From positions 51,982,761 through 52,046,760 of the forward strand of contig OZ024869.1 in the NCBI GenBank assembly GCA_964017185.1: a stretch of 64,000 bases of DNA, given 5' to 3'. The DNA is from Rugalucina vietnamica (Eukaryota; Mollusca; Bivalvia; Lucinida; Lucinidae). The notes beneath the pieces were generated by a model that did not search any database, had not been told where the DNA came from, and saw only the letters and a program-made list of their open reading frames with translations. This document shows positions 2,085 through 57,205 of the stretch, piece by piece (within the stretch, counting starts at the first letter, position 1; each line of letters starts with the position of its first letter). The translations under genes and the position numbers were made by a program.

Positions 2085-3200
2085 TTTATTTCTTAATAGA
2101 AACAACTTAGGAAGATGGTTGGTCATTCATCTTTTGACTTTGTGACACTGACTTGTGTGTCATGACGGTAAGGGTCGTTTGACCTACTTTCCATGGTTCA
2201 GTGATTTTGCCTTATATCTTGACACTCAATTAGTATATTTTCATACTTTTTCAGATTATGAGTGAGTATGACCAGACCTTTGACCCCAATATACTTATAG
2301 GTCACTGTGACCTAATTTCACGGTTCAGTGATTTTGCCTTATATCTCGGTACTCAAATGGTTTATGAACAAACTTCTTTCAAAGTATGTTTGCGTATGAC
2401 AAGACCTTTGACCCTGAAGTAGTCCTAGGTCACTGTGACCTAATTTCACGGTTCAGTGATTTTGCCTTATATCTTGACACTCAATTAGTATATTTTCATA
2501 CTTTTTTCAGATTATGAGTGAGTATGACCAGACCTTTGACCCCAATATACTTATAGGTCACTGTGACCTAATTTCACGGTTCAGTGACTTTGCCATATAT
2601 CTCAGCACTCAGGTGGTTTATGAACATACTTCTTTCACACTATGTTTGCGTATGACAAGACCTTTGACCCTAAAGTAGTCCTAGGTCACTGTGACCTAAT
2701 TTCACAGTTCAGTGATTTTCCTTTATATCTCGGCACCCAATTGGTATATGGACATACTTCTTGCACGATATGTATGAGTATGACAAGACCTTTGACCGTA
2801 AAGTATTCCTGGGTCACTGTGACCTAATTTCATGGTTCAGTGATTTTGCCTTATTTCTCGACACTCAGTTGGTATTTTTTCATACTTCTTTCTGATTATG
2901 AATGAGTATGACCAGACCTTTAACCCAAACTTACTTATAGGTCACTATGACCTAATTTCATGGTTCAGTGATTTTGCTTTATATCTCAACACTGAATGGG
3001 TATATGATCATATTTCTTTCACATTATGAGTAAGTATCACTAGACCTTATAGGTCAGTGTGACCTTATTTCTCGGTTCAGTGATTTTGCCTTGTGTCTTG
3101 GCACTCAGTTGGTATATGAACAATATGAGTGAGACCTCTAAATCTTAGGTAGTTATAGTTAACTTTCATAGTTCAGTGATTTTGCCTTATTGCATCAAGG
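2085..3200. repeat. 128-bp satellite with palindromic hormone-response-like core
   Basis: A unit repeats with an exact 128-bp step. The 15-bp core AGGTCActgTGACCT or a close variant starts at 2299, 2427, 2555, 2683, 2811, 2939 and 3051 (last step 112), and a degenerate core lies at 2171. Each unit also carries GGTTCAGTGATTTTGCC. GGTCAnnnTGACC is the consensus palindrome for estrogen-receptor-type nuclear receptors. The core is kept at all seven later positions although the rest of the unit drifts. No protein is encoded. Confidence 0.85.
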
Positions 3201-5915: not shown

Positions 5916-6430
5916 TGCATACCCCAGTTTCACTATGTAAAAGTGGGGTTTGAGGGGGTATACTTTACACGGACTTGTTTTCCTGATGTACCCATGCATA
6001 CGCCAGTTTTGCATTATAATAAAAGTGGGGTTTAAGGGGGCATAAATTGCATGGACATGTTTGCCTGATGTGTTTGAGACGGACGCCGGAGCATGGGTAT
6101 ACTGTAACTTCGGCTCAGGTGAGCTGAAAAGGGCGTTTTTAAACATTGCGTCAGCACATCAATGACACACATAAAAAATTCAAGGTTACATGCGATTTGC
6201 ATAAATATTACATCAGTTTTATGTCCCCAAGGTCGAATTCAAATCATGTCAGAAACATGATATCTGTCACGTACCAACATCAAAAAGCCAGATGTAAGTT
6301 AATCAATAAACCCACGATGATTGTTTTCCGCGAAAGTCATCCGAATTAAAGAGTATTTCTTCGATTGGTTAGCTAAGAGATCATCAAACTCCTCTGCAAG
6401 AGATCATCTATTGCCATTTTTCTATTCTTC

Positions 6431-6838
6431 AAGTTAAAATTTTCGAGTTTCCAGTCAAAATTCTCGAGTTTCGAGTTACAATTTTCGAGTTTCCAGTCAA
6501 AATTTTCGAGTTTCGAGTTAATATTTTCGAGTTTCGAGTCAATATTTTCGAGTTTCGAGTCAAAATGTTCGAGTTTCGAGTTACAATTTTCGAGTTTCGA
6601 GTTAAAATTTTCGAGTTTCGAGTTAAATTTTCGAGTTTCGAGTCAAAATTTTCGAGTTTCGAGTTACTATTTTCGAGTTTCGAGTTACAAATTTCGAGTT
6701 TCGAGTCAACATTTTCGAGTTTCGAGTTAAAATTTTCGAGTTTCGAGTCAAAATTTTCGAGTTTCGAGTTACTATTTTCGAGTTTCGAGTAAATATTTTC
6801 GAGTTTCGAGTTAAAATTTTCGAGTTTCGAGTTAAAAA
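6431..6838 (+). repeat. 21-bp minisatellite
   Basis: About 20 tandem units of GAGTTTCGAGTTAAAATTTTC with small variants (GAGTC, ACAAT, ATATT). An open frame through it encodes only a period-7 peptide and is an artefact of the repeat. Confidence 0.95.
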
Positions 6839-7494
6839 ATTCAGTTTCTATAGGGTGCCGTTTTACTATTTATTCATCATTTTAGGATATCCATAATTCA
6901 AAATCATTTAATCAAGCTGAATTACGGAAATTTAGGATATCCATAAATCGAATTTTGGATATGAATTTTGGAAATCCAAAATTTGACTTATGGACATCCA
7001 TAATACGATTTATGAATATCCATGATTTGACTTATTCATATCATTAAATCAGTTTGATTTATGGGTATCTATAAATACAATTATGGATATTATAAGTTGA
7101 TGGATAGCAACAAATCAATGCAAATCTTCACGCATATTTGGAAACTTTCATACTTCAAATTGGCTTTATTATGTACATTGATGTCGGTCAAGGATGATAG
7201 TTTATTAACGATTATTTACTCAAAACAGAAGGGCTACTTATATTAAGCGAAATCCATTAACCAGTTTATGGTGAATGGACTTTCCCATCGTTATCATTTG
7301 GGTAAGTACACTGTCATTTTGAGGGGAATCGGTTTTGATTTTTATGTTTTATTTCATTTTTCAATGACATTTTCTTTCAGCAAACAGAAAAGCCCCAGAT
7401 GTGTGCGTGTGTATGGTTGCGAGGAGTGGACCTTTTTTCAATGCTACGTAATGAAATATTACTTAAACCAGTTTTTGGATTTTTTTAAAAAAAT
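6839..7494. other. AT-rich spacer between inverted minisatellites
   Basis: It holds many variants of TTATGGATATCCATAA-like words between 6880 and 7100, then ordinary AT-rich sequence. No coding support. Confidence 0.6.
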
Positions 7495-7872
7495 AAGCCA
7501 CTTTTTAACTCGAAACTCACTTTTTTTAACTCGAAACTCACTTTTTAACTCGAAACTCGCTTTTTTAACTCGAAACTCACCTTTTTAACTCGAAACTCAC
7601 TTTTTTAACTAGAAACTCGCTTTTTTAACTCGAAACTCACCTTTTTAACTCGAAACTCACTTTTTTAACTTGAAACTCGCTTTTCTAACTCGAAACTCAC
7701 TTTTTCAACTCGAAACTCGCTTTTTTTAACTCGAAACTCGCTTTTTTAACTCGAAACTCGAAACTCACTTTTTTAACTCGAAACTCACTTTTTTGACTCG
7801 AAACTCACTTTTTTGACTCGAAACTCACTTTTCTAACTCGAAACTCGCTTTTGTTACTCGAAACTCACTACT
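7495..7872 (-). repeat. 20-bp minisatellite, inverted relative to 6431-6838
   Basis: About 18 units of AACTCGAAACTCACTTTTTT. Read on the minus strand the unit is GAGTTTCGAGTTAAAAAAGT, which shares GAGTTTCGAGTTAAAA with the 21-bp array, so the two arrays form an inverted pair about 650 bp apart. Confidence 0.95.
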
Positions 7873-8180
7873 CGAAAAAAAGAACTCCTCCATTACAACT
7901 TCCTCTAAAAATTGATTGTAACCCAGTTCTAACTAAGGTGCCTTTCATATAAAAATGCAACAACTTTTTACTTAAATATTGGGATGCATTTCAGTGCTTT
8001 TGCTACGCACAAAATTTACCAGCTGACTCTCAAGTTTTAGAACAATCGTGGAAGCTACTAAGCAGATTAAAAAAGCTGGAGAATTCAGCAAGACTTCATG
8101 CATTTTATAGGAGATATTTTTATTTGGTCCGTCCGTTCGAGAAAAGAAAGCTTCTGTTCTTTAAAAAAAGAACCTTGTGT

Positions 8181-16944: not shown

Positions 16945-17168
16945 TTAAGCCTAGGTTACCTTTGCCCCGATCATCGTACGATTTTTCGGTCTGCGATTTT
17001 CTCTACGATTTTAGACATCGTAGGAGATCGTGGGCTACGACGTATGTATTTACAATTCATACGGGCATCGTTCTATTTTTTGATCTGCCATTTGTCGACG
17101 TTCTCATACAAAAAACGCAAGGCGATCGCACGGTCGTCGTATGTCTCCGCAGATAGTACGTAGATACA
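16945..17168 (+). repeat. CGTACG-rich repeat, 5' part
   Basis: GGTTACATTTGCCCCGATCA, CGTACGATTTTTCGGTC and TTTACAATTCATACGGGCAT recur near 18833, 19760 and 20390. The piece stops at 17168 where another element begins. Confidence 0.65.
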
Positions 17169-18357: not shown

Positions 18358-18899
18358 AGATATCGTATTGATCCCGTGCGTTGTCCGTACGGAGTCCCTA
18401 TACGTTTTGATACAAAACGCAAGGAGGCCGCACGGTAGTCGTAGGGTCTCCGCAGACTGTTAGTGGATATCGTACGGAATCCCTTGGATTTCTGACTGAT
18501 GCCTCGGTTACATTTGGCCTACGATTAGCTTGCGATGATCGTACGATGCCATTTTTTGCATTTTCGTGCGGCCTCCGCAGGGTGACCTTACGATGTCCCC
18601 ACGATTCTACGACCTCCTACGATCTCCGTAGCCTCTACGATCTTGTAATAGTCTGTACAATTACAAATTTTAAAATCGTAAGACCGTAGCCCCTAGACAC
18701 GTCGTAGGGCATCATACGGGCACCGTTCGGATACCCTGCGATAATCGAGCGGTCACCGCACGGTTTTTTTTTATGATAATTTGGGAACAAAAATCGTACA
18801 GCGATCGTAGGGAGGCCGCAAGGGGTCATGCCTAGTAGGTTACATTTGCCCCGATCATTGTACGATTTTTCGGTCCGCGATTTCCCCACGATTTTTTAG
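18358..18899 (+). repeat. CGTACG-rich repeat, continuation
   Basis: Dense in CGTACG, CTACGAT, ACGGTC and TCCGCAG words. It includes a second GTTACATTTGCCCCGATCAT head at about 18839 and is cut at TTTTTTAG (18892-18899) by the LTR. Confidence 0.65.
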
Positions 18900-19302
18900 T
18901 GTTACGTGCCAGGCGTAACTAGAAGATTAAGGAAACCAACAAGTTGGTTAGCGAGCAACAAGCTTTGTTTAAAATTTAACAAATCTATTTAGAAGTGATT
19001 TAACCAGTAATTACATGTGAAACAATCAAAAGCATATATACAATCAAACAAATGAATGTACAATACCTTTCAAGATGTTAATTCCCTTAAAGAATGTCTG
19101 AATGTCCCTCAGAATTTTTTAACACAAGTCTGTATCAGTTTCTGATCCCAAGAATTAAAGTTTGTTTCAAAATAGCACTATGTCCCAATCCAGAATCGAA
19201 TATCACAAAGTAATCCAAGAATAAGTTTAAATTCCAGTAAGATAGATTTTGACTTCTTAATAGTAACAGTACCCAAAGATTGTCCTTATGAAAATTTGTA
19301 GC

Positions 19303-19312
19303 CCTTATATAG
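19303..19312 (-). promoter_or_regulatory. TATA box in LTR
   Basis: The minus strand reads GCTATATAAGGGC over 19301-19313, about 22 bp downstream of the nearest heat-shock element. Initiation would be expected near 19280. Confidence 0.6.
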
Positions 19313-19334
19313 CACTGAGGAACATTCAGGATTC

Positions 19335-19553
19335 TTCCAGCAAATTCTATGATATCATATACTAAAAATAACAAGTTGTTTACCAAAATTTAATGTTCTG
19401 GAATATTCTAGAGAGGCCATTATCCTTCCAGAAAATTCCACAATATTCTTTTGACATAAAAAAAGATTTTTCTAGAAGATTCTACATCTTTGGTTCTTCC
19501 AGATTTTTCCGGACTTTTCCGTCAAAGAACAATTTGAAATTTCTAGAAAATTC
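19335..19553 (-). promoter_or_regulatory. Cluster of five heat-shock elements
   Basis: HSF sites are alternating NTTCN/NGAAN pentamers. Perfect three-pentamer sites: TTCCAGAAAATTC (19426-19438), TTCTAGAAGATTC (19470-19482) and TTCTAGAAAATTC (19541-19553). A four-pentamer site TTCTGGAATATTCTAGAG (19396-19413) has only its last base off. TTCCAGCAAATTC (19335-19347) has one mismatch. HSEs are symmetric, so strand is set by the TATA box. Confidence 0.75.
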
Positions 19554-19739
19554 TGAAGTAAACAACCTGTTTATGTCCAATATCTGGGACACTAAAAGTA
19601 AATAATTGCTAAGGACAACAAGTAAACATCATATGTATAACATCATACTTTCCTGGGCATACTCCCTTGGGAAGTTTACCAGTACTGAATGCACATCTTT
19701 CAACAAGTAACTGTCATACATAACATTAGACATCGAATG

Positions 19740-23378: not shown

Positions 23379-26369
23379 ATGGCCACACAGTTAACTTCAG
23401 ACTATTTTGGCACCATCAGTTCAGGTACATTCCAAAACGACTATACCTTTATTGAAACAGTCGGCAAAGGAGGATACGGAGAGGTCTACAAAGTTGTGTC
23501 GAAGAAAGACTTTCATACTTATGCGGTGAAGAAGATCCGAATTGACAAACACAGGCAGAAGGAAAACTTAAATTTCATCAAAAGAGAACTGATAAATAAT
23601 GCGAAGCTTTCACATGAGAACATTGTCAGGTACTATGATTCTTGGGTTGAACTCAGTGATGATCAGCACTCAGGCGGTTATGGTCTTTCTGGGGACAGAG
23701 AATCGTCAAGTGAAAGTGATATTACAGAAAAATTACCCAACGCAGCCTCTTTCGATGAATGTCACGGTTCTTGTGAGCCTTGGGCAATGCAAGAGGCATC
23801 CATTTCACATGAAGATTTTACTGAAGAAGATGTAATAGATGATGAGGAGTTCACCCCACAAACAACGAACTCCAATTTAAATCAAAATACGATATGTGAC
23901 TTAGGTTGTACCACAGGGAGCAATGTTTGTACTCTATATAGTGAACCGTTTTCAGACACACTTATAGACTACAAACTAAACGAACCAGGACCAAGTGAAA
24001 AACTTGATAAAAGTTGTTTGGATCCAGATATCGATATTGTATTTACGGACGACACAGACATAGAGGTTAAAGACCTTGGTAATAGTAGTTACTGTTTGCG
24101 CTTCGAATATATTGAGGACATGTGTATGGAACAGCAAAGCGCACACAATCACGTGAATGAATTGCCTTTTACAGATTTCAGCCAGTTTATTCTTGGGACT
24201 GGAAGCTCATCGGATCTATTCAAAGGAGAATCCCATTGTTTCATGCCATCGGAAGATAATGAAAGTCCGATGGCTTTGAACTTGTATATTAAGATGGAAC
24301 TTTGTGAAAGCACTCTCAGACAAGCTATAGACAATGGTATGTTTATTGAAAACGACGAACTCTGCTGGAATTACTTAAGACAAATTGTTACAGGTCTAAA
24401 CTACATACACAGCAAAGGGATAATACATAGAGACCTGAAACCAAATAATATCTTTATTACAAATGAAAATCTTGTCAAAATCGGTGATTTTGGGCTGTCG
24501 AGATGGCAGCCGGGGTCAGATCTTCATAACGGTGCCGATGGAACAAATAATATCAGACAAGTGGATGATTTAACAGGTGGGAGAGGAACTTTTTGGTATA
24601 GCGCCCCTGAAATGTTGCATGCATCGAATTGCAATTATGGTCAAGAAGTGGACATGTTCAGTCTGGGATTGATATTCTTTGAGATGTGTTATGAAATAAT
24701 GAAGACTTCGCAAGAAAAGGCTATGATATTCGAAAGATTACGCAAGGAAAGAAAATTTCCAGACAATTTTGATAGAAATGCCAAAGCAAAGCATGCACAG
24801 ATAATTGAGACCTTACTAGCCCCTAATCCGAAAGAAAGAACCACGCTGCGAGAGATTTTACACTTAATTGATGGTGGTGACAACGCAAGGCTGTTAACGC
24901 AGGCTGAAACATTGATTGGACACATTGTCGACACCCAATGTAATGAACTCTACCGTTCGCTGATTGAAAAACTCTTCGATCGAAAAACAGGGCATTGTGT
25001 TCCTATTTACCAAAGTTGTACTTCGTCTGAACAGACACTGGCTACAAAGCTTGCGTTCATAAATGTGGTCAAAAGTCATGGTGCGAAAGATATATGCCTA
25101 CCACTTTTCTTGCCCATACCAGATACCGAAAATAGTCGTAGTGGAGACGAGACAGTACTTATAGACGCAGAAGGCAACCCCGTATATATTACCGACAGCG
25201 CTCTGCGATCATTTATACACACTCTTGAAAAAAGAAAGATATCACCGATGGGTGCCTTCTACTACGCACAAACTATGAGCTTGGTACATGATATCTGCGA
25301 GGAGAAACGTTCCGTTAGCTCACCAGAGCTTTGGTATTTTTCGTTCTCTGCAAGCGATGATATGTTGTCCATTGCTAAATCATTACTGATTCTACAGAAA
25401 ACGCTTACGAAGATGGGGCACTGTACAGCTGATTTTGAAATTTGCATTACCCACACGGATTTGGAAAATGGCTTGATAGCGTTTTACAACCTGGGCGAAA
25501 CAGATAAAGGCGTTTTATGTAGAATCAACGACCTTGTAGTAGGAAGAAATGCTAGAAAAAGAGTACTAAAACGAGTGAATGAAAGTGGCATGTCCATCCC
25601 TGAAATTCTTGTTATGTCGGGAGGATACAAAATGATGATTGAAAAACTCAAGAAAATTCTAGGAAACCTACAAAGGCCGCTTCGTGGAACAGAGACTCAT
25701 GACTTTGAGAAGCTACATAACGTACTTGATTTTCTGACACATCTTAAGGAGGTCATTGACGCTATTGGTGTAACCATAGACACCAAACTCGAGTTATTAA
25801 TGACAGACCAGAATGGAATATCAAAAGAGTCGGGAATCAAATTTCGACTACGGAAAAGGCATACGTTGACTATTGTGGCAAAAGGTGGACAGTCAGAAAC
25901 AGACATGAATTTGGACAGTGATGTAACGGAGAATCAGTTTATCTGGGTTCAGTTGGACCCATTACAGTTGGAAGATGACACTGAGACCCTATCAGCGCCG
26001 GATGTCACAATAGTGTATGATAAAACAAATCCTGAGGAGGTAAAAGGTACATCGTATTTGTGTGGCCAATTAACAAACCTCGGCCTAACTGTAACCGAAA
26101 TTGAACTCAAAAGAGAATTCTCAGGCGCAATTTCTATCTCGCCACACTGTAAATTTCTTGTTAACTTCGTTTCATCAGTCTTGGAGGAGAGAGATACAAA
26201 GCTTCAAAAGATTCCTGTAAATATCCAAACAATTGTGAATCATATCAAACAAAGGAGACACTTTCACTGTATGAAATACACACTGAATTATAGGATACAT
26301 TATCATAAGGCAAGGATAATTAGGATTTTGATATATAGGGTGCGTTTGACCAATCACAGCTCTCAATAA
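23379..26369 (+). CDS. GCN2-like eIF2alpha kinase, single exon
   Basis: The 996-aa protein has an eIF2-kinase domain followed by a histidyl-tRNA-synthetase-like region, the hallmark pairing of GCN2/EIF2AK4, which phosphorylates eIF2alpha in the cytosol under amino-acid stress. Visible motifs: Gly-rich loop GKGGYGEV (29-36), ATP lysine K51 in AVKK, an acidic insert of roughly residues 85-300, HRDLKPNN (350-357), DFG (370-372) and APE (409-411). The HisRS-like part covers about 510-860, and an anticodon-binding-like fold about 880-950. Canonical GCN2 is about 1,650 aa with an N-terminal RWD and a pseudokinase domain; both are absent here. The start ATG has a strong context (ACCATGG). The last ~40 residues are basic and Tyr/His-rich and do not look like GCN2. 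All catalytic residues are present. The lack of introns over 3 kb suggests a retrocopy or a lineage-specific paralogue. Confidence 0.9.
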   Translation: MATQLTSDYFGTISSGTFQNDYTFIETVGKGGYGEVYKVVSKKDFHTYAVKKIRIDKHRQKENLNFIKRELINNAKLSHENIVRYYDSWVELSDDQHSGGYGLSGDRESSSESDITEKLPNAASFDECHGSCEPWAMQEASISHEDFTEEDVIDDEEFTPQTTNSNLNQNTICDLGCTTGSNVCTLYSEPFSDTLIDYKLNEPGPSEKLDKSCLDPDIDIVFTDDTDIEVKDLGNSSYCLRFEYIEDMCMEQQSAHNHVNELPFTDFSQFILGTGSSSDLFKGESHCFMPSEDNESPMALNLYIKMELCESTLRQAIDNGMFIENDELCWNYLRQIVTGLNYIHSKGIIHRDLKPNNIFITNENLVKIGDFGLSRWQPGSDLHNGADGTNNIRQVDDLTGGRGTFWYSAPEMLHASNCNYGQEVDMFSLGLIFFEMCYEIMKTSQEKAMIFERLRKERKFPDNFDRNAKAKHAQIIETLLAPNPKERTTLREILHLIDGGDNARLLTQAETLIGHIVDTQCNELYRSLIEKLFDRKTGHCVPIYQSCTSSEQTLATKLAFINVVKSHGAKDICLPLFLPIPDTENSRSGDETVLIDAEGNPVYITDSALRSFIHTLEKRKISPMGAFYYAQTMSLVHDICEEKRSVSSPELWYFSFSASDDMLSIAKSLLILQKTLTKMGHCTADFEICITHTDLENGLIAFYNLGETDKGVLCRINDLVVGRNARKRVLKRVNESGMSIPEILVMSGGYKMMIEKLKKILGNLQRPLRGTETHDFEKLHNVLDFLTHLKEVIDAIGVTIDTKLELLMTDQNGISKESGIKFRLRKRHTLTIVAKGGQSETDMNLDSDVTENQFIWVQLDPLQLEDDTETLSAPDVTIVYDKTNPEEVKGTSYLCGQLTNLGLTVTEIELKREFSGAISISPHCKFLVNFVSSVLEERDTKLQKIPVNIQTIVNHIKQRRHFHCMKYTLNYRIHYHKARIIRILIYRVRLTNHSSQ

Positions 26370-42194: not shown

Positions 42195-44150
42195 CGTCAT
42201 ATAAACCAGAGGACCAACGGTCCTGTAAACGCTCACCTGAGACCCGAGATATATACCAATAAACTTGTTTGACTAGAATGATAATATACTTGTATATAAC
42301 CATATACATGTATTTAACCCCAGGGCAGGTCAGAGCAACCTCTGGAGTCAATTTCTTTTTTAAATCATAAAGATTCAGTCCATTTGCCAATTTATTGCAA
42401 GTTTTGCCCTTCAAATGACATTGTAACAATTTTCCCATTCAAATGCATAGACAACCTACGTTGACCTTGCCGTAAAAAAGGTCAAGGTCATCCCAGGGTC
42501 ATGATTTATACAAACTTTGTAGAGCTCCATTGCCTGATGCTTCATGCCAAGTTTCAAAATCATAGGCCTTCTGGGTCTGGAGAAGAAAAAAATTAAAGGT
42601 TTTTGTTATTTATAGCCATGACGGCCATCTTGGTCATGTGACCCTGACCATTTATACAAACTTTCATTCACTCTTCCTAAGAATGCTTCACATAAAGTTT
42701 GGCTTTGATTGGCCAAGCGGTTTCAGAGAAGAAGACGTTTGAATATTATGGTCATACAAATGTATATAGCCCCGGGGCAGGGGCAGACAACTCTTGGCCC
42801 AAAATATTTTCATAAACATGAATATTCTGTCAATTTGCTCATTCCTAGCAAGTTTTTTTTGCCATTAAATGACATTTTCCTATTTTTTCCCATTCAAATG
42901 CATGGGCGGCCTAAGTTGACCTTGCTGTAAAAAAGGTCAAGGTCATCCCAAGGTCATGATTTATACAAACTTTGTAAAGCCCCATTGCCTGATGCTTCAT
43001 GCCAAGTTTTAAAATCATAGGCCTTCTGGTTCGGGAGAAGAAGATTTTTAAAGGTTTTTGCTATTTATAACCATGGCGGCCATCTTGGTCATGTGACCTT
43101 GATCATGTATACAAACTTTCATTCACTCTTCCTAAGAAAGCTCCACATAAAGTTTGGCTTTGATTGGCCAAGCGGGCGGTTTCGGAGAAGATCTTTGAAT
43201 ATCACTGTAATATACATGTATATTGCCCCGGGGTGGGGGCAGACAGACCCCTGGGCTCCATTTTTTTCAGAATCATCAATCTTAAGTCCATTTGCCCATT
43301 TCCTGCAAGTTTTTCCCTATAAATGACATTTTAACAATTTCCCCCATTCAAATGCATGAGCGACCTATTCTGACCTTGCCGTACAATAGTCAATGTCATC
43401 CCAGGGACATGATTTATATAAACTTTGTAGAGCTCCAGTCACTAATGCTTCACACCAAGTTTCAAAATCATTGGCCTTCTGGTTCTGGAGAAGAAGATTT
43501 TTAAAGTTTTTTTTTTTTTATTTATAGCCATGACGGCCATCTTGGTCATGTAGCCTTGACCATTTATATAAACTTTCTTTCCCCCTTCCCAAGGTTTCAT
43601 TATTATGGAAATATACATGTATATAGCCCCGGGGCAGTGGCAGACAACACCCCAGGGGCTGAAATTTTCCATTAACATTAATCTTCTGTCCATTTGCATA
43701 TTCCCAGTAAGTTTTACCCATTAAATAGCATTTTACCATTTTTTCCCATTCAAATGCATTGGCGACCTAAGTTGATCTTGCCGTAAAATAGGTCAAGGTC
43801 ATCCCTGGGTCATGATTTATATAGACTATGATGGGCCCACGTCCCCGATGCTACATACCAAGTTTCGTGGAAATCGGCCCACTGGTTCTGGAGAAGATTT
43901 TTAAAGGATTTTGCTATTTATAGCCATGGCGGCCATCTTGGTCATGTGACCTGGACCATTTATATTGTGACCTGGACCATTTATATAGACTTTCGTTCCC
44001 CCTTCCTAAGGATGCTCCACATGAAGTTTGGCTTTGATTGGCCAAGCGGTTTCGGAGGACGACGAACGAACGACGACGGACAGACGCCGGAGCATGGGTA
44101 TACTATAAGCTCACGTGTGAGCCTTCGGCTCAGGTGAGCTAATAAATGTT
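42195..44150 (+). mobile_element. Helentron-like non-autonomous element, array 1
   Basis: Head ATAAACCAGAGGACCAACGG and CGCTCACCTGAGA; tail GCCGGAGCATGGGTATACTA followed by a hairpin ending CTCAGGTGAGCT. Between them a ~455-bp unit repeats about four times; each unit has GGCCATCTTGGTCATGTGAC, GGCTTTGATTGGCCAAGCGG, CCCCGGGGCAG and AGGTCAAGGTCA. Short inverted ends, a subterminal 3' hairpin and internal tandem repeats fit Helentron/HINE-type elements, but no Rep-helicase is present and the class is inferred. Confidence 0.65.
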
Positions 44151-44188
44151 TGATCCTTTGGAAGCAGTAAAAACATTCAAAGGACAAG

Positions 44189-44521
44189 TATAGCTCGGCA
44201 AATGGGTCACTGTATGGGCGGCAACTTTAATATTCATATCTGGGCGTGGTCGGCTAGTCCATCTGTTCAAGTAGGGAGATAATAGAAAAGTCGAATTCAG
44301 TCAGCCTAGAGCGCTGTCACATATTTTACCGTTAAAGATCAGCTACCTATTTTGTCCAATCCAGTAAACTAGACAAACTCGGATTTTCATTCTAACGGAC
44401 AACATGTGAGTTGAGTCTTTCAACTGTATACCTTTAGCTTTTACCTAGGTTAAAAGTAGACCATACCCAATAACGTATTCATAAGGTAACGCCCATACAG
44501 TGACCTATTTGCCGAGCTATA
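44189..44521. mobile_element. MITE with TA target duplication
   Basis: 32-bp terminal inverted repeats (TATAGCTCGGCAAAT, then GGTCACTGTATGGGCG) with one mismatch. TA at both borders is consistent with Tc1/mariner-type mobilisation. It separates the two Helentron-like arrays. No transposase. Confidence 0.8.
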
Positions 44522-44534
44522 TTAGCTAGTTGAC

Positions 44535-46055
44535 ATAAACCCAGAGGACCAATGGTCCTGTAAACGCTCACCTGAGATCAGCTGCATATACCAATAAACA
44601 TGTTTGAATATTATGGTATTTAACTCCAGTGCAGGGGCAGATAAGCCCTTGGGCCATTTTCTTTTTTCAGAATCTTCAATATTCTGTCCATTTGCCAATT
44701 TCCTGTTGGCTTTTTCCTTCAAATGACATTTTAACAGTTTTCCCAATTCAGATGCACAGGCAACCCATGTTGACCTTGCCATAAACTTGGTCAAGGTCAT
44801 CACAGGGTCATGATTTATATATACATTGGAGTACTTTAGCCATCGATGCCTCACGCCAAGTTTCCTTGAAATCAGTCTATTGGTTTCAGAGAAGATGATT
44901 TTTGATGGGTTTTTACCATATATGGGCATGGCGGCCATCTTGGTCATGTGACCTAGATTATTTATATACACATTGATTCCCCCATTCTATAGATGCTTCA
45001 CTTAAAATTTGGCTTTGTTTGGCCAAGCGGTTTCAGAGGAGAAGACGTTTGAATATTATGGAAATATACATGTATATTGTCCCGGGGTGGGGGCACATGA
45101 GCCCCTGGGGTCCAATTTTTTTCAGAATCATTAATATCCAGTCCTACTGCCCATTTCCTGCAAGACTTTCACTTTAAAAGACATTTTAAAAGTTTTCCCC
45201 ATTCAAATGCATTGGTGACCTATGTTGACCTTCCCGTAAAATAGGTCAAGGTCATCACAGGGTCATGATTTATATATACATTGTAGTGCTTGAGCCATCG
45301 ATGCTTCGTGCCAAGTTTCGTTGAAATCGGTCAACCGGTTCTGGAGAAGAAGATTTTTGAACGGTTTTTACCATATATGGGCATGGCGGCCATCTTGGTC
45401 ATGTGACCTGGATTTTTTATATACATATTTGTTACCCCTTCCTATTGATGCTTCACATAAAATTTCGCTTTGATTGGCCAAGCGGTTTCAGAGGAGAAGA
45501 TGTTTGAATATTATGGAGATATACATGTATATTGCCCCGGGGTGGGGGCATATGAGCCCCTGGTGCCCTTTTTTTTTCAGAATCATTAATATTCAGTCCT
45601 ACTGCTCATTTTCTGCAAGATTTTTCCTTTAAATGACAATTTAACAATTTTTCCCATTCAAATGCATTCGCGACCTATGTTGACCTTGCCGTAAAATAGG
45701 TCAAGGTCATCATAGGGTCATGATTTATGTACACATTGCTTGAGCCATTAATGCTTCATGCCAAGTTTGGTTGAAATCGGTCCAGTGGTTCCGGAGAAGA
45801 AGATTTTTGAAAGGTTTTTACCATATATGGGCATGGCGGCCATCTTGGTCATGTGACCTGGATTATTTATATACACATTGGTTCCCCCTTCCCATAGATG
45901 CTTCATGTAAAATTTGGCTTTGATTGGCCAAGCAGTTTCAGAGGAGAAGATCTTTGAAAATGGTGGACGACGGACGACGGACGGACGGACGGACGACGGA
46001 GCATGGGTATACTATAAGCTCACCTTGTGAGCCTGACGGCTCAGGTGAGCTAAAA
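44535..46055 (+). mobile_element. Helentron-like non-autonomous element, array 2
   Basis: Same head (CCAGAGGACCAATGGTCCTG) and tail (GGAGCATGGGTATACTATAA, hairpin, CTCAGGTGAGCT) as array 1, with about three units of 455 bp. The AGGTCAAGGTCA core is at 44788, 45243 and 45698, exactly 455 bp apart. Confidence 0.65.
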
Positions 46056-50748: not shown

Positions 50749-51705
50749 ATGTCGGACAACGAGGAAACTAATACCGCTCCTCCGGCGTTTAATTTTGACG
50801 ACTGGGCGAGTAGCTTGGGACTAAAACGCCCTGTGACACAGACTCTTCGAAATGAAGAATTAGTCACCAAGGAAGCATTATTGTTGTTAGAGCCTAAGGA
50901 CTTGAAAGAATTGGGGCTGACAATGGGCTCAGTGAAAATCATTATGAACGATATAGATAAGTGGAAATGTGTGACAATAATCGATGAAAAGGATGAGAAT
51001 GCCGAAATTCTGGATGGGGCAGGTAAGACATTTGATCACCTCCTCAGTGACCCGCCTGCCCCTTCCCCCAAGCACACCACCTCGGTTTTCGGCCAGATGG
51101 ACCCGAGGGCTATTCTCACTATTAAGTCCCAGACGCAAAAGGCTATCCATATCACACAGTTTCTAACTGAGAAGAGCAAACGGCGCCGACAAGGCAGGCG
51201 CAAGGAATTCGTTCTAAAGTCCGGCAGTGCGAATGCTGAAACCCTTGTGCTCAAGGCCGACGAGGAACATCCATACTTAGGCATTTTTATGGAGGAATGG
51301 GGTGCCGCGAATATGCGACTCCTCAATCACCTGCTAACCACAAAGAAACTTGCCAGAGAAAATATCGAATTTTACCTGGCATATACCACCAAGATTTATG
51401 AGCTCGCCGAGAAATACGACTGGAACTCTGTGCTCAACTACGATTATGCTTATAGGGAATTGCAGGCAGAACACCAGTTCCAGTGGGGCACCTTTTCTCC
51501 CAGCATGGAGCTTCAACTTCTCGTCCCTAAACGTAATCAACCGCCCTCTAAGTCAGGTTACCAACCTCCGTCAAAAACCGAGGATTGTAAAATATTCAAA
51601 GCGAAAGGGTCATGCCCTTTCGGTACCTCCTGTAAATACCGCCATCCTAAAGTGAATCATACGCCTGAAACACCAAATGATACTTCCGGAATAAAAAACA
51701 TGTAA
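50749..51705 (+). CDS. YR element ORF1: SAM-like and CCCH zinc-finger protein
   Basis: 318 aa. Residues ~13-68 look like a SAM domain (DDWASSLGLKRP, then LEPKDLKELGLTMGS, then the helix ending DIDKW), a protein- or RNA-interaction fold. Residues 280-299 form a canonical CCCH finger, C-x8-C-x5-C-x3-H (CKIF...CPFGTSCKYRH). Such a protein plausibly acts as the Gag-like nucleocapsid of the element. ATG at 50749 follows the left repeat by 37 bp. The frame ends at TAA 51703-51705, six nt after a slippery heptamer. Confidence 0.85.
   Translation: MSDNEETNTAPPAFNFDDWASSLGLKRPVTQTLRNEELVTKEALLLLEPKDLKELGLTMGSVKIIMNDIDKWKCVTIIDEKDENAEILDGAGKTFDHLLSDPPAPSPKHTTSVFGQMDPRAILTIKSQTQKAIHITQFLTEKSKRRRQGRRKEFVLKSGSANAETLVLKADEEHPYLGIFMEEWGAANMRLLNHLLTTKKLARENIEFYLAYTTKIYELAEKYDWNSVLNYDYAYRELQAEHQFQWGTFSPSMELQLLVPKRNQPPSKSGYQPPSKTEDCKIFKAKGSCPFGTSCKYRHPKVNHTPETPNDTSGIKNM
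51693..51699 (+). promoter_or_regulatory. -1 ribosomal frameshift heptamer A AAA AAC
   Basis: In the ORF1 frame the codons are AAA (51694-51696) and AAC (51697-51699) preceded by A, exactly the X XXY YYZ arrangement. Slipping back one base continues into the RT frame, which is open from 51681 to 53231. The ORF1 stop follows at 51703. A downstream pseudoknot could not be evaluated. Confidence 0.7.
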
Positions 51706-53231
51706 ACCGGTCTACAGCACTAAACTATGAGGCATGGGAAAAGGAACTACCTGAAGACTATAAGGATCGTGAATACTTGTTATCTGGAATTCGTGATGGC
51801 TTTCATATTGTCGATTCAGTAAACATTACTAATTACGTTGAAGTGGAAAATTATCGTTCTGCTACCGACGAGAGTTCGCGCGCGCATGTGGAGAGACAAA
51901 TCTTCACCGAAATTGAAAATGGTCGTTACAAAATCGTCAATGAGAAACCCCACATTGTATCTGCACTTGGGGCCATCCCCAAGAAAAACTCACCGGATGT
52001 CAGATTGATTCATGATGCCTCACGGCCTTCTGGATTTGCCCTTAATGACTTTGCCAAAAACAATTCCTTCAAATATCAATCGATTCAAGATGCTGTGGAT
52101 TTTGTAACCCCAGGTTGTTATTTTGCCAAACTGGATCTATCAAACGCATTTCGCTGTGTGAAATCTCATAGATCAAATTTCAAAGCCACTGGACTAAAAT
52201 GGCGTTTCCAAGGTGATAAACATTACACGTACTTAATTGACGAGCGTCTTCCATTCGGTGCTCGTAAGTCCCCAGAGATATTCAATTCGATTACGCAAGC
52301 AGTCAGGGAAATGATGAAACGCAAAGGTTATGACACCATTATCTGTTACCTAGATGATTTCTTGATAGTGGCACAAACTCACAGTGAATGTATTCAGGCG
52401 CTTAATGAACTGTTATGTTTACTTAGACGGCTAGGATTTCAGATCAACTACAAAAAACTTGAGGGACCTACACAGAAAATCACCTTTCTTGGAATAGTGT
52501 TAAATTCGATAACAATGACATTGTCGATACCGGGAGAAAAACTTGAAGACGTCGCATCAACAATGAAGTCATTTATGTCTTGCAGGAAAGTTACGAAACG
52601 TGACATTCAAAGCCTTGTAGGCAAGTTAAATTGGATAACTCAATGTGTTTACGGTGGCCGTTTTCACATGCGCCGACTTATTGATAAGTCTAACACTCTG
52701 AAAAAACCTTGGCATAGAACTCACGTGACGCTTGAAATGAAAAAAGACATTCTGTGGTGGCTGAGTTTTATGCAAACATTTAATGGGACCACGCCTATGA
52801 TAGACTGTAGACCGGCAACGCCATGTAGCATTGACTCTTGTAAACTCGCAGGAGGCGCCTTTTATCAAGGTGACTTTGTACATACTATGTGGAAACCAGA
52901 AATTCAATCTCTTCCAATAAACTATTTAGAAGTTCTCGCTTTAGAACCAGCAGTTACGCGTTGGGCGCCCTTATGGACTAACAAAAAGGTGTTTATTCAC
53001 TCGGACAATCAAGCAGCGTGTAGCATCATAAATCGTGGATCGTGTAGAAATCCAGTTGTCATGGACTCGTTGAGACGAGTATTCTGGTTGTCAGCTGTGT
53101 TTAATTTCCGTCTGAAGGCAGTTTATTACCGGGGCGCGTCCAACTTCTTGGCAGACTGTGCCTCTCGTTTACATGAGCCTGGAAAACTCCAGAATTTACT
53201 TCAAAACATGAATAACATTGGTTACATTTAA
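51699..53231 (+). CDS. YR element ORF2: reverse transcriptase-RNase H
   Basis: The frame is open from 51681 and has no convincing ATG near its start, which fits entry by -1 frameshifting from ORF1. RT motifs: LGAIPKKNSPDVRLIHDASR, YFAKLDLSNAFRCV, LPFGARKSPEIFN and the active site CYLDDFL (Tyr codon at 52347). RNase H follows: SIDSCKLAGGAFY, INYLEVLALEPA, FIHSDNQAACSIINRG and ASNFLADCASRL. No integrase or protease is present, as in DIRS-order elements. It copies element RNA to DNA and removes the RNA strand. Confidence 0.92.
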   Translation, partial: HVNRSTALNYEAWEKELPEDYKDREYLLSGIRDGFHIVDSVNITNYVEVENYRSATDESSRAHVERQIFTEIENGRYKIVNEKPHIVSALGAIPKKNSPDVRLIHDASRPSGFALNDFAKNNSFKYQSIQDAVDFVTPGCYFAKLDLSNAFRCVKSHRSNFKATGLKWRFQGDKHYTYLIDERLPFGARKSPEIFNSITQAVREMMKRKGYDTIICYLDDFLIVAQTHSECIQALNELLCLLRRLGFQINYKKLEGPTQKITFLGIVLNSITMTLSIPGEKLEDVASTMKSFMSCRKVTKRDIQSLVGKLNWITQCVYGGRFHMRRLIDKSNTLKKPWHRTHVTLEMKKDILWWLSFMQTFNGTTPMIDCRPATPCSIDSCKLAGGAFYQGDFVHTMWKPEIQSLPINYLEVLALEPAVTRWAPLWTNKKVFIHSDNQAACSIINRGSCRNPVVMDSLRRVFWLSAVFNFRLKAVYYRGASNFLADCASRLHEPGKLQNLLQNMNNIGYI

Positions 53232-54214
53232 TTCCAGGGAGCGGTGATTCAGAGACTGACTTAGACAGTGCCGCCAGATTTTATATCAGCCAGGCGTTCT
53301 CGGACAACACTAAGAGGGCGTACAGGACACATAGGCAGTCGTACTTCGGCTTCTGCAGTCGCTTCGGATACCAACCTTTCCCGGCTAGCACATCTACCTT
53401 GTGTCGGTATGTGTCCTTTCTGGCAAAGAAACTGAAATTCAATTCGATAAAACAATATTTAAACTATGTGCGTATTCTTCATTGTGAACGGAACTTACCA
53501 AACCCCCTGGAAAATAACTTTCTACTCTCACATACCCTAAAAGGAATTCGCAGATGCTTTGGGGATACGGTAGTGCGCAAGAAGCCAATTACCCCAAACA
53601 TGTTGAAATGTATTCTCAAAAATCTGGATTTAAAGAAACAGTTTGATGCAGCCGTGTGGGCGCTGTGTCTAACCATGTTTTATGGTTTTCTCAGACGTAG
53701 TAATGTTATGGTGCCTTCCGGTACCAGGTTTGACGACTCAAAACTTTTACGCAGACAGGACATTATCTTTTTCCCATGGGGAGTGCTGATTCATATTCGC
53801 TGGAGCAAAGTAATTCAGTTCCAGTCTAGAACCTTTGATGTTCCCTTGCCCCGCCTCCCCGGTAACGTGTTATGCCCTGTTAACGCTTTGGTTAATTACC
53901 TACATCTCACATGCGGTGCCCCTCCTTCAGGCCCCGCCTTTGTTTACTTTGTGAATTCCGCGCCAAAGACTATTACCTCTGAGATCTTTATTGGCCGGGT
54001 GCGGGAGTGCGTATCGTCAGAGACTGTCAATCAATCGGACATATCTACTCACTCTTTTAGACGCGGAGCGGCTCATTTTTCCAACTTAGCCGGTCTTTCT
54101 GCGGACTCGATTAAGCTACTGGGTGACTGGCGCTCCTCGTGTTACTCAAACTATATAGACAATAGTGTCACTACTCGGCTTCAACTAACTCGCCAGTTGC
54201 AATCCCACATTTGA
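53216..54214 (+). CDS. YR element ORF3: tyrosine recombinase
   Basis: The frame is open from 53216, overlapping the end of ORF2 by about 16 nt in the -1 frame. The N-terminal part (FYISQAFSDNTKRAYRTHRQ) is a core-binding SAM-like domain. Catalytic residues of the family are visible: Arg in FYGFLRRSNVM, Lys in RWSKVI, HSFRRGAA (HxxR), LLGDWRSSCY with W at the second His/Trp position, and the likely nucleophile Tyr in SNYI. It would integrate the circular DNA copy. No ATG lies near the frame start, so translation probably needs recoding or reinitiation. Downstream AATAAA is at 54395-54400. Confidence 0.92.
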   Translation, partial: HWLHLIPGSGDSETDLDSAARFYISQAFSDNTKRAYRTHRQSYFGFCSRFGYQPFPASTSTLCRYVSFLAKKLKFNSIKQYLNYVRILHCERNLPNPLENNFLLSHTLKGIRRCFGDTVVRKKPITPNMLKCILKNLDLKKQFDAAVWALCLTMFYGFLRRSNVMVPSGTRFDDSKLLRRQDIIFFPWGVLIHIRWSKVIQFQSRTFDVPLPRLPGNVLCPVNALVNYLHLTCGAPPSGPAFVYFVNSAPKTITSEIFIGRVRECVSSETVNQSDISTHSFRRGAAHFSNLAGLSADSIKLLGDWRSSCYSNYIDNSVTTRLQLTRQLQSHI

Positions 54215-54639: not shown

Positions 54640-57205
54640 TCACGGACATTCTAGGCAGGCTAGCGCAGCGTCTGTTAGTATCAGACAGAAAAAAGGAGGG
54701 ATTATAGTACAGAGGTTTAAAAGTTTAAAAGTGAAGGATAAAAACAGATGATAGGTTAAAATAGATAAGAATAGCTAAAATCAGATAAAAACAAGCAACT
54801 TGGGATCTATGGGCGTGAGTGCTGCAACTTGCAGACTGCTGCCTTGAAGGCATCAAGGCTGTGCAAGGTTGCAACAGACTCAGGGAGGGAGTTCCACTGT
54901 ACTATGGCCAAGGGGAAGAAGGAGTATTTGTAGTAATCCTTTGATGTGTAGACCTGCCTGAAGGTCATGGAATGGCAGTACCGTGATATTCTGTTTGAAT
55001 ACTGCACGTGATCCGGGAGGGGTACAGCAACTAAACAATGGATTACTTTGTAAAACAAGCAAAGACGGGCATCAGCCCGTCTTTGTGCCAATGTTCTCCA
55101 TCCCAGTTCTTGTATAATCCGAGTTACACTTGCCTGCCTATCGAAGTTACTGACAGTCCAGCGGGCGGCCCTTTTCTGGATTTGTTCAATCTGGTTTATC
55201 CGCCTGTCAGTATGCGGGTCCCATACAGCTGAGGCATACTCAAGCTGTGGCCTGACAAGGGTGTTATATGCAGTTTCACGAACCCTTGACATCTTCGTTT
55301 TGATATTGCGACGGATAAAGCCGAGGGTCCGGTTTGCGTTTCCTGTTATGCGGTCAACATGGAAGTTCCAAGAGAGATCACTGGAAATATCAACCCCAAG
55401 ATACCTGGCACATGTGACAGCCTCCAAGACTTGGCCATGCAATAGGTAGTCTGTTTTAATTGGCTTTTTTAACTTGGAGCCTGTCACATGCACCACCTGA
55501 CACTTCGAGGGGTTGAACTCCATATCCCACCTGGATTCCCATGCCGATAGAATGTCAAGGTCAGACTGGAGTGTGGAGCTGTCATCCTCGCTCTCCAGGG
55601 TGAGGTATAGGGCTGTATCGTCTGCAAACAACCTCACCTGGGAGCGGACCTCATCAGGCAGATCGTTTATATAGACGAGGAAAAGAATCGGGCCCAGGAC
55701 AGAGCCCTGGGGGACACCGGACGTGACAGGTATCGATTCCGATTCCTCCCCGTCAATCACTACCCGCTGGGATCTACTCCCAAGGAAAGCTCGGATCCAG
55801 CTCAACACATGCCCGCGAATGCCATACTGATGCAGCTTCCAAATAAGTTTACTATGGTTGACCTTATCAAATGCTTTTGAGAAGTCTAGGAGTATGATGT
55901 CAGTTTGTCTCCCCGCACCGGCATTCCTCGCGAGGTCCTCAATTAGCATGATGAGCTGGGTCTCACATGACCGTCTCTCCCTAAACCCATGTTGGAGGTC
56001 ATACATGAGGCCCCGCTCATCAAGGTGCTTAACAATGTTTGATGCTAATATGTGTTCAAGAACCTTACAAAGAATGCAAGTGAGGGAGATTGGTCGGTAG
56101 TTTGATGCCAGAGATTTATCGCCTTTCTTAAACACGGGCATGACATTGGCCTTGGTCCAGTCTGCTGGGAGCTTGCCGGTCTGGAGCGATCGTTCATAGA
56201 TGATCTTAAGGATGGGGGCAATCTCTTCCCCAAGCTCTTTCAGCAGAAGGGGTTTTAGACCATCCGGTCCAGCTGCCTTACCCGGTTTAAGATTTTTAAG
56301 TAATTTCAGGAGGCCATTTTCTGAGATGCTTATCTCTGGCATACATTTGGTAGTGTCTTGTTCAGGGTCAGTGTCAGTGTTGGGAGACAAACCACCTGCT
56401 GATTTCAAGTCCTGCACACGCATTTTGGCCAGGCGAGAGAGAGAAAGAGGATCCTTTGGAGTAAAAACAGAGTTGAACTGTTCATTGAATAGGTTGGCTT
56501 TAGTTTTAGTGTCTGAGTGGAGCTTATTTTCATGTTTCAGAGGTGGTGTGCCTTGTTGGTCGCGTCGTGAGTTTTTCAGAAATGAGAAAAGCTTTTTGTT
56601 GTCACATTTATCTTCTTCTTCATTTAGACCCAAGAGATTTTCGAGATATGCCTGGTAAGAGTCCTTTATTTTCCTTTTAATTTTCTGTCGAAGGGTCTGA
56701 AATTGTGTCTTTAAGTCTATTTGTCCGGTCTTTTTGAACTTAGTATAGAGGCTATCCCGTTTGCGTATTAATCGTCTAATCTCTTGGGTTATCCAAGGCA
56801 AGGATGATTTGCCTCGGATAAGTTTAGCAGGTATACATTCGAGAGTCAGTCTGTCAAGGGTAGTAGTAAAGTCTGTCCAGAGTTCTTCTGCAGATTTTCC
56901 GAAATGGTCTGATAAAAAAGTCTGTTGGTAGGATTTCATTTTTGATTTCAGCTTTGGCCAGTCAGCTTTGCGAAAGACCAATGCCTTCCTGGGTTTTTGT
57001 TTATGTTGGGTGGGTTTCAAGAGTGCCTCTGCTGAGACAATCTCATGATCACCAAGGCCGGGGCAGCATTTGACATCTGAAATTAGGGTTGGATTTGTTG
57101 TTAAAAACAAGTCCAGGATGTTTTCTTGTCTAGTGGGCTCTGTTACAACTTGTGTGAAATTCCCTCCCTACAATAGGTCATGAACTTTACAAATATTTCA
57201 TTCAT
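54640..57205 (-). mobile_element. 5'-truncated LINE (CR1/jockey-like)
   Basis: Non-LTR retrotransposon on the minus strand with its 3' region toward the YR element. The endonuclease domain is almost all missing: only its last part (EPTRQENILDLFLTTNPTLI) remains, typical of incomplete reverse transcription. A 3' region rich in AGATAAAAAC-like words lies at about 54725-54800. Exact borders and target duplication are not resolved. Confidence 0.85.
54807..57167 (-). CDS. LINE ORF2 C-terminal part: reverse transcriptase
   Basis: The frame is open from 57167 (TAG at 57170-57168) to the stop at 54807. Residues are numbered from 57110. RT motifs: KAAGPDGLKPLLLKELG, ANVMPVFKKGDKSLASNYRP, GFRERRSCETQL, LLDFSKAFDKVNHS, VTSGVPQGSVLGPILFLVYI, and the catalytic FADD at 495-498. 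After it come ARYLGVDISSDLSW and RPQLEYASAVWDP, the conserved thumb/C-terminal region. Just upstream, a second frame reads KFMTYCREG, which fits the expected endonuclease sequence if one base was lost near 57160, so the copy is both truncated and frameshifted. No genuine start codon. Confidence 0.93.
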   Translation of the reverse strand, partial: GGNFTQVVTEPTRQENILDLFLTTNPTLISDVKCCPGLGDHEIVSAEALLKPTQHKQKPRKALVFRKADWPKLKSKMKSYQQTFLSDHFGKSAEELWTDFTTTLDRLTLECIPAKLIRGKSSLPWITQEIRRLIRKRDSLYTKFKKTGQIDLKTQFQTLRQKIKRKIKDSYQAYLENLLGLNEEEDKCDNKKLFSFLKNSRRDQQGTPPLKHENKLHSDTKTKANLFNEQFNSVFTPKDPLSLSRLAKMRVQDLKSAGGLSPNTDTDPEQDTTKCMPEISISENGLLKLLKNLKPGKAAGPDGLKPLLLKELGEEIAPILKIIYERSLQTGKLPADWTKANVMPVFKKGDKSLASNYRPISLTCILCKVLEHILASNIVKHLDERGLMYDLQHGFRERRSCETQLIMLIEDLARNAGAGRQTDIILLDFSKAFDKVNHSKLIWKLHQYGIRGHVLSWIRAFLGSRSQRVVIDGEESESIPVTSGVPQGSVLGPILFLVYINDLPDEVRSQVRLFADDTALYLTLESEDDSSTLQSDLDILSAWESRWDMEFNPSKCQVVHVTGSKLKKPIKTDYLLHGQVLEAVTCARYLGVDISSDLSWNFHVDRITGNANRTLGFIRRNIKTKMSRVRETAYNTLVRPQLEYASAVWDPHTDRRINQIEQIQKRAARWTVSNFDRQASVTRIIQELGWRTLAQRRADARLCLFYKVIHCLVAVPLPDHVQYSNRISRYCHSMTFRQVYTSKDYYKYSFFPLAIVQWNSLPESVATLHSLDAFKAAVCKLQHSRP

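Follow-up and report, generated by a model that had tools for sequence, protein, structure and literature searches.

An LTR in a stretch of 64,000 nucleotides from the bivalve Rugalucina vietnamica (the window; positions are counted from its first letter unless a contig is named) is probably the HSF-driven, heat-inducible promoter of a Gmr1-type Ty3/gypsy retrotransposon that was active recently. The U3 of this LTR appears to be built as a heat-shock-type promoter, in which six runs of alternating nGAAn and nTTCn pentamers, i.e., heat-shock elements (HSEs), end just upstream of a TATA box (Table 1). From this arrangement we infer where transcription starts, that HSF binds and heat induces the LTR, and that such a coupling of transcription to heat helped the family to expand.

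Table 1. Features of the solo LTR and its surroundings in the window.
Feature	Position	Strand	Basis
Solo LTR, Gmr1-type Ty3/gypsy family, 826 nt	18900..19725	-	genome matches, target-site duplication, empty site
Target-site duplication TTAG, left	18896..18899	.	sequence
Target-site duplication TTAG, right	19726..19729	.	sequence
Relative of the target without the insertion, compared as empty site	16952..17086	+	86% over 137 bp
Perfect four-pentamer HSE GAANNTTCNNGAANNTTC, contains TTCTAGAA	19536..19553	-	HSE scan
Imperfect five-pentamer HSE run, two mismatches	19497..19519	-	HSE scan
Four-pentamer HSE with one mismatch, including the perfect three-pentamer HSE 19470-19482 with TTCTAGAA	19465..19482	-	HSE scan
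Five-pentamer HSE with one mismatch, including the perfect three-pentamer HSE 19426-19438	19426..19448	-	HSE scan
Five-pentamer HSE run with two mismatches, including the perfect three-pentamer HSE 19396-19408	19391..19413	-	HSE scan
Six-pentamer HSE run, two mismatches, adjoins TATA box	19320..19347	-	HSE scan
TATA box TATATAAGG	19303..19311	-	sequence; in 57/57 non-duplicate LTR copies
Predicted start site	~19275-19281	-	~25-30 bp past TATA box

The insertion and its retrotransposon family

Judged by its termini and flanks, the segment 18900-19725 is a solo LTR, the remnant of a retrotransposon whose two LTRs recombined with each other. On the plus strand it ends in TGTTACGTG...CATAACA, which reads TGTTATG...CGTAACA in the sense direction, i.e., on the minus strand. 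The CGTAACA end adjoins a common PBS-like stretch in many copies of the family, and at the other LTR end the purine tract GAAGAGGGGAAG precedes the 3' LTRs as a polypurine tract (PPT). Because TTAG is found on both flanks and the joined flanks align across the junction with 16952-17086, the segment must have inserted into a repeat, of which an uninterrupted form is present as well. The preliminary description had named the TGTTA...TAACA ends, the TTAG on each side and an uninterrupted relative of the target, placed at 17003-17035; the sequence of the segment and its flanks bears this out, with a longer match to the relative. It had also proposed a solo LTR with its promoter on the minus strand, which agrees with the termini, the target-site duplication, the other copies and the layout of array and TATA box. 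CpG is depleted in this LTR (6 observed vs 20.5 expected), which may weakly hint at methylation and silencing. An Rfam scan of 15-24 kb of the window gave no match.

The genome searched comprises 1.09 Gb in 47 contigs. All 40 scored places, the window copy included, match the LTR over its full length at 99-100%; they were drawn from 1,413 first-look candidates, and the copy count is thus a floor. Most other full copies measure 828 nt. An LTR-specific 32-mer was found at 1,455 sites and a PBS-like 29-mer at 469 sites (both at up to 3 mismatches), compared with 0 sites for either reversed control, and since LTR sites outnumber PBS-like sites to this extent, several hundred LTRs of the family are probably solo. 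Neither PBS nor PPT lies alongside the LTR in seven of 20 loci (L001, L005, L009, L013, L015, L017, L020).

Full-length elements with these LTRs, a PBS-like site and pol, as the proposal of a retrotransposon LTR implied, were found in the genome. The LTR end abuts the PBS-like stretch in all 30 loci examined (27 with a full-length and three with a partial LTR), and TGGGGGCTCGAGTCCGGG, which lies beside the 5' LTR, looks like a PBS; one tRNA-gene pattern matching TGGGGGCTCGAGTCCGGG retrieved 0 genes. Successive LTRs are spaced by ~6,092 bp, which together with LTRs of 828 nt gives a full length of ~6.9 kb. The copies share their termini, with 60 of 63 aligned LTR rows starting with TGTTAT (L012 and a single locus present twice, as L022 and L057, deviate) and 63 of 63 ending with GTAACA. 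Short target duplications of 4-5 bp were seen by eye in seven of eight solo LTRs, L015 being the one without, and in all six LTR pairs that have both outer ends intact.

As read from its copies, the family is young, recently active and abundant. Eight LTR pairs differ by 0-1.1% within the pair, the mean pairwise substitution difference among 57 LTRs is 0.86%, and an open frame of 1646-1673 aa covers 26 of the 63 best-scoring RT matches listed. These 57 LTRs remained of the 63 aligned rows when the duplicate loci L056, L057, L063, L065, L066 and L068 had been dropped; nine of them were found via a perfect HSE itself and 27 via the PBS alone. L050, which is identical to L049, was kept in the counts of variability and HSEs and dropped from the singleton test, and the partial LTRs L032, L036 and L039 were left out of the alignment. 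The element also occurs in a tandem run on contig C3 (33178807-33203189) of at least five units with ~6.1-kb spacing, in which neighbours have LTRs in common, and in other short tandem runs on contigs C5 and C1. A further stretch, C3:4388500-4391600 (L054), was rejected as element interior, lacking an LTR start, a PPT and a long pol frame.

The coding order, put together from pieces of different copies (where the L051 piece ends, it overlaps with the beginning of the L052 piece), is gag of SCAN type, protease, integrase, RT and RNase H. Gag carries a SCAN domain (PF02023, E = 4e-11) and, by eye, a zinc knuckle, and is followed by a protease-like DTGA motif, likewise recognized by eye. The integrase, with H2C2, rve and C-terminal domain, lies upstream of RT and RNase H. 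Matches to Pfam are RVT_1, RT_RNaseH, RT_RNaseH_2, Integrase_H2C2 and rve, a set that marks the element as gypsy and not copia. By its domains the family is of the Gmr1 type of Ty3/gypsy, an assignment resting on two features, the integrase-before-RT order and the SCAN-like Gag. An integrase upstream of RT is described as the mark of the unusual Gmr1 clade (PMC6238403), and a Gmr1-like Gag is given as the source of the SCAN domain of vertebrates (PMC3424704). The family has both features in common with the Gmr1-type elements of the passages drawn on (PMC6238403, PMC3424704) and differs in its HSE-bearing LTR, which was not found for this group among the literature matches listed.

Relatives of the RT are numerous: of 7,982 candidates that were scored, 1,777 proteins reach E <= 1e-30. 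The best 120, which were listed, include contigs named after clam-symbiont bacteria at 82% and 73% as well as a hemichordate, echinoderms and an octocoral at 63-70%, a range consistent with a host among marine invertebrates. The protein queries P0010 and P0084 gave 63 rows at 79-80% and 67 rows at 63-64% identity, near-uniform and in each case the best of ~5,000 candidates, below which rarer sister families may lie. Sister families in the genome were rejected as a reading of these best rows, which with their near-uniform identity read as one family only. A PBS pattern that excludes the base preceding it in the family occurs at six places in the genome. The genome-contig collection contains one relative, L077, which is 59% identical and lies on a contig binned as an archaeal MAG; for this contig we infer animal contamination. 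L077 has the same domain order as the family and an LTR start TGTTAT behind a purine tract, and its 5,472 bases contain no perfect three-pentamer and no near-perfect four-pentamer HSE. L077 is the only relative with a partly readable LTR, and judged by its lack of HSEs the array is not a feature common to the whole group. No relative was found in the viral-contig collection, by single sequence or by alignment query, and the plasmid collection gave distant RT matches only (three records below 60% identity).

The array of heat-shock elements

The six HSE runs occupy ~235 bp of the LTR, from 173 to 406 in the sense direction, and TATATAAGG starts at sense 415. The array noticed in the preliminary description is real and larger than described, with five perfect three-pentamer HSEs (19541-19553, 19536-19548, 19470-19482, 19426-19438, 19396-19408) instead of three. 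The first two overlap to form the perfect four-pentamer HSE 19536-19553, which had gone unlisted; the four-pentamer HSE with a single terminal mismatch is 19396-19413. The distance from the HSEs to TATATAAGG had been given as 22 bp; measured from the run at 19320-19347 it is 8 bp.

Five perfect three-pentamer matches compare with a mean of 0.027 and a maximum of 2 in 1000 dinucleotide shuffles, and seven four-pentamer matches with at most one mismatch compare with a mean of 0.005, overlapping matches being counted alike in real and shuffled sequence. Each of four measures was reached in 0 of 1000 shuffles of the LTR and in 0 of 2000 shuffles of the U3. In the rest of the 64 kb, divided into 1,259 sliding 265-bp segments, the best value was 2, compared with 7 in the array.

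As a positive control, the same scan was applied to seven HSP70 coding matches of this genome, in each case to the 800 bp that lie upstream; of the eight strong HSP70 matches the one on C11, for which no first exon was listed, was left out. The seven stretches contain 0, 3, 5, 5, 4, 1 and 2 perfect three-pentamer HSEs, a perfect four-pentamer HSE occurs in three of them, and in five the HSEs are followed downstream by a TATA motif. With five perfect three-pentamer HSEs and one perfect four-pentamer HSE the LTR equals the best of these hsp70 stretches. The control is not uniform, because one of the seven stretches, that of the only single-exon match of 650 aa, has no HSE within 800 bp.

HSEs were also expected in other copies, and at least two perfect three-pentamer HSEs are indeed present in 57 of 57 LTRs and a perfect four-pentamer HSE in 55. 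Among the 27 LTRs that were found via the PBS alone, 25 retain the four-pentamer HSE and all retain the TATA box. The number of perfect three-pentamer matches per copy is two in one copy, three in five, four in 34 and five in 17, which places the window copy on the rich side of the range. In 31 of the 57 copies an A in place of a G breaks the perfect match within the site 19396-19408.

Throughout the genome the perfect four-pentamer pattern has 1,578 sites, compared with 114 for the reversed control. Among 50 of these sites that were listed, 48 carry the exact 18-mer of the family and one, L055, is a family LTR with one change. Patterns whose middle excludes the TA of the family gave 110 sites for the first base and 114 for the second (controls 84 and 75), meaning that at least 114 and at most 224 sites differ from the family middle. 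Therefore 1,354 to 1,464 of the 1,578 sites (86-93%) carry the family middle, in agreement with the 1,455 LTR sites and the retention of the four-pentamer HSE in 25 of 27 copies. By this sequence count the family supplies about nine tenths of the perfect four-pentamer HSEs of the genome. Two non-family sites fall in hsp70 promoter stretches. For three-pentamer HSEs, with 27,944 sites compared with 9,774 for the control, the family share is a minority, estimated at ~6,000. Apart from the family, an identical three-pentamer HSE, GAACGTTCCGGAA, occurs six times among the first 100 three-pentamer places listed (on contig C1, e.g., 840584, 1416612, 1700959, 2460819, 2722520, 3029510), and this recurrence points to another dispersed repeat that carries an HSE-like site.

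Promoter function and alternative explanations

If the LTR acts as a heat-shock-type promoter, HSF trimers would bind cooperatively to the array under heat or protein-damage stress and recruit Pol II, and transcription would start on the minus strand, ~30 bp past the TATA box. Three matches to the HSF DNA-binding domain in the genome are in keeping with such a promoter. In full-length copies a start at the LTR would yield the genomic RNA, and in solo LTRs heat-induced transcripts would run into the flank; heat induction of DNA near the copies is thereby possible. For COPIA LTRs of Brassicaceae, the passages drawn on describe a correlation between predicted sites and heat induction, which reaches up to thousand-fold with 4P HREs and up to hundred-fold with 3P sites (PMC5059998). 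This correlation makes it reasonable by analogy, short of proof in an animal, to expect heat induction of the LTR.

The strongest alternative, though an unlikely one, is that HSF uses the array mainly for germline, developmental or general-stress expression and that acute heat induction is a side effect. HSF isoforms act in animal gametogenesis, inherited copies are gained only through germline transcription, and three HSF DNA-binding-domain matches were found in the genome, all of which fits such a use. The number and layout of the sites resemble the better hsp70 promoters and suggest acute stress control instead.

Still less probable is the explanation that the array is a by-product of slippage and duplication of a short GAA/TTC repeat in a fast-evolving U3, with little effect because its copies are silenced. 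This explanation draws on the variation among the copies, in which HSE positions are not more conserved than the remaining LTR and, if anything, are less conserved. Variable columns make up 23 of 90 in the HSE core triplets and 91 of 688 outside the HSE spans, and singletons 19 of 90 and 82 of 688, respectively (p = 0.019), giving no sign in either comparison of purifying selection on HSE cores among the LTR copies. Most singletons probably arose after insertion and are neutral, where constraint is unexpected, and since the copies are young and their changes are probably mostly of this kind, the conservation test has little power. Among the changes shared between copies, four break HSE matches and two make them. 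Moreover, two deletions segregate at sense 205-214 and 286-295 (in six and three of the 57 copies); as both are exactly 10 bp, i.e., two pentamers, and keep the HSE phase, turnover of the array seems to proceed in units of two pentamers. A slippage origin with little effect has to be weighed against the retention of at least two perfect three-pentamer HSEs in every copy and of the four-pentamer HSE in nearly all of them, also outside the set found via HSEs (25 of 27), against the position of the array directly at the TATA box and against a family that is young and abundant.

Several factors use TTC/GAA half-sites, which are not exclusive to HSF, and the half-sites of the array might serve one of these, e.g., a STAT-like binder of TTCnnnGAA. 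This is very improbable, as the 5-bp phase and the alternating orientation over four to six units are the arrangement of HSF, from which STAT spacing differs. Finally, a chance match over-read by eye, a concern with an array singled out for looking striking, is refuted to near certainty by the 0 of 1000 shuffles and the genome-wide 1,578 compared with 114 sites.

Known heat-responsive elements and the surroundings of the LTR

LTR retrotransposons driven by HSF have been documented for plants and are suspected for fungi, and the family would be an animal LTR counterpart. Among the literature matches listed, which were open-licence PMC papers only, none described an LTR retrotransposon of an animal that bears an HSE array. 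DIRS-1 of Dictyostelium, reportedly described by Zuker and colleagues in 1983 as a repetitive family induced by heat shock, resembles the family in this induction and differs as a tyrosine-recombinase retroelement of an amoeba. Older work also exists on heat shock and copia of Drosophila.

The comparison with ONSEN made in the preliminary description is apt as an analogy and fails as kinship: ONSEN belongs to Ty1/copia and the family to Gmr1-type Ty3/gypsy, implying that the two arose independently. ONSEN/COPIA78 and the Brassicaceae COPIA elements likewise have LTRs with clustered nGAAn pentamers, including a 4P-type HRE (PMC3907296, PMC5059998), but ONSEN/COPIA78 is a plant Ty1/copia element, whereas the family has gypsy-type domains and an animal host. 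In A. thaliana, the passages drawn on describe eight full-length ONSEN copies with a gap HRE and a 4P HRE, and a 3P HRE in one of them, and give 0 of 16 fragments or solo LTRs as retaining a functional HRE (PMC3907296, PMC5059998). In contrast, the family has six HSE runs per LTR, ~1,455 LTR sites and arrays that are intact in solo LTRs.

Among animals, the Helitrons of Caenorhabditis are mobile elements that hold a large share of the HSEs of the genome in dense clusters (PMC6927752). They are DNA transposons and not LTR promoters, unlike the family with its LTRs, target-site duplications and pol; as far as the passages drawn on go, this enrichment was seen only in Caenorhabditis among the UCSC metazoans examined, in a survey of Helitrons as opposed to LTR elements (PMC6927752). 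In Cryptococcus, the LTRs of the retrotransposons TCN3 and TCN12 carry putative HSEs; mobilization of TCN12 is almost confined to 37 C, and that of TCN3 is higher at 37 C (PMC12810828). They differ from the family in being fungal and in having one or two putative HSEs (PMC12810828). For animals, the available part of this 2026 paper cites only the Caenorhabditis Helitrons (PMC12810828).

An animal LTR family with a promoter of hsp70 grade, hundreds of near-identical copies and the majority of the strongest HSEs of its genome would make heat-driven retrotransposition directly testable, and it would allow the change of a heat-shock network after a transposon burst to be examined. A bolder and only tentative reading is that a heat-shock-driven LTR burst rewired the strongest HSF sites of the host, ~90% of the perfect four-pentamer HSEs in 1.09 Gb. 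If this were true, HSF would load largely onto retrotransposon LTRs under heat, warming would be coupled to transposition, and hundreds of loci, solo LTR sites among them, would gain new heat-inducible promoters or an HSF sink.

In the window, the nearest long ORF among those listed starts at 23379 on the plus strand, 3.65 kb off and on the side that the LTR promoter faces away from. This intronless ORF of 996 aa (23379-26369) matches the protein-kinase domain in two stretches and is eIF2alpha-kinase-like; its named relatives include PKR-like and GCN2 eIF2alpha kinases, unnamed close ones are at 90, 66 and 54%, and from these matches it is possibly a stress kinase. Three consecutive ORFs at 50749-54214 (+) have, by eye, the look of a DIRS/YR-type retroelement, with an RT-RNase H-like part at 51777 and a recombinase-like ORF at 53399, for which a Pfam scan gave no match. 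A 767-aa ORF at 54807-57110 (-) has a reverse transcriptase domain, by eye of the non-LTR type. Tandem repeats are found at 42400-46000 (~455 bp unit), 2249-3060 (~128 bp), 6365-6929 (~21 bp) and 7467-7916 (~20 bp).
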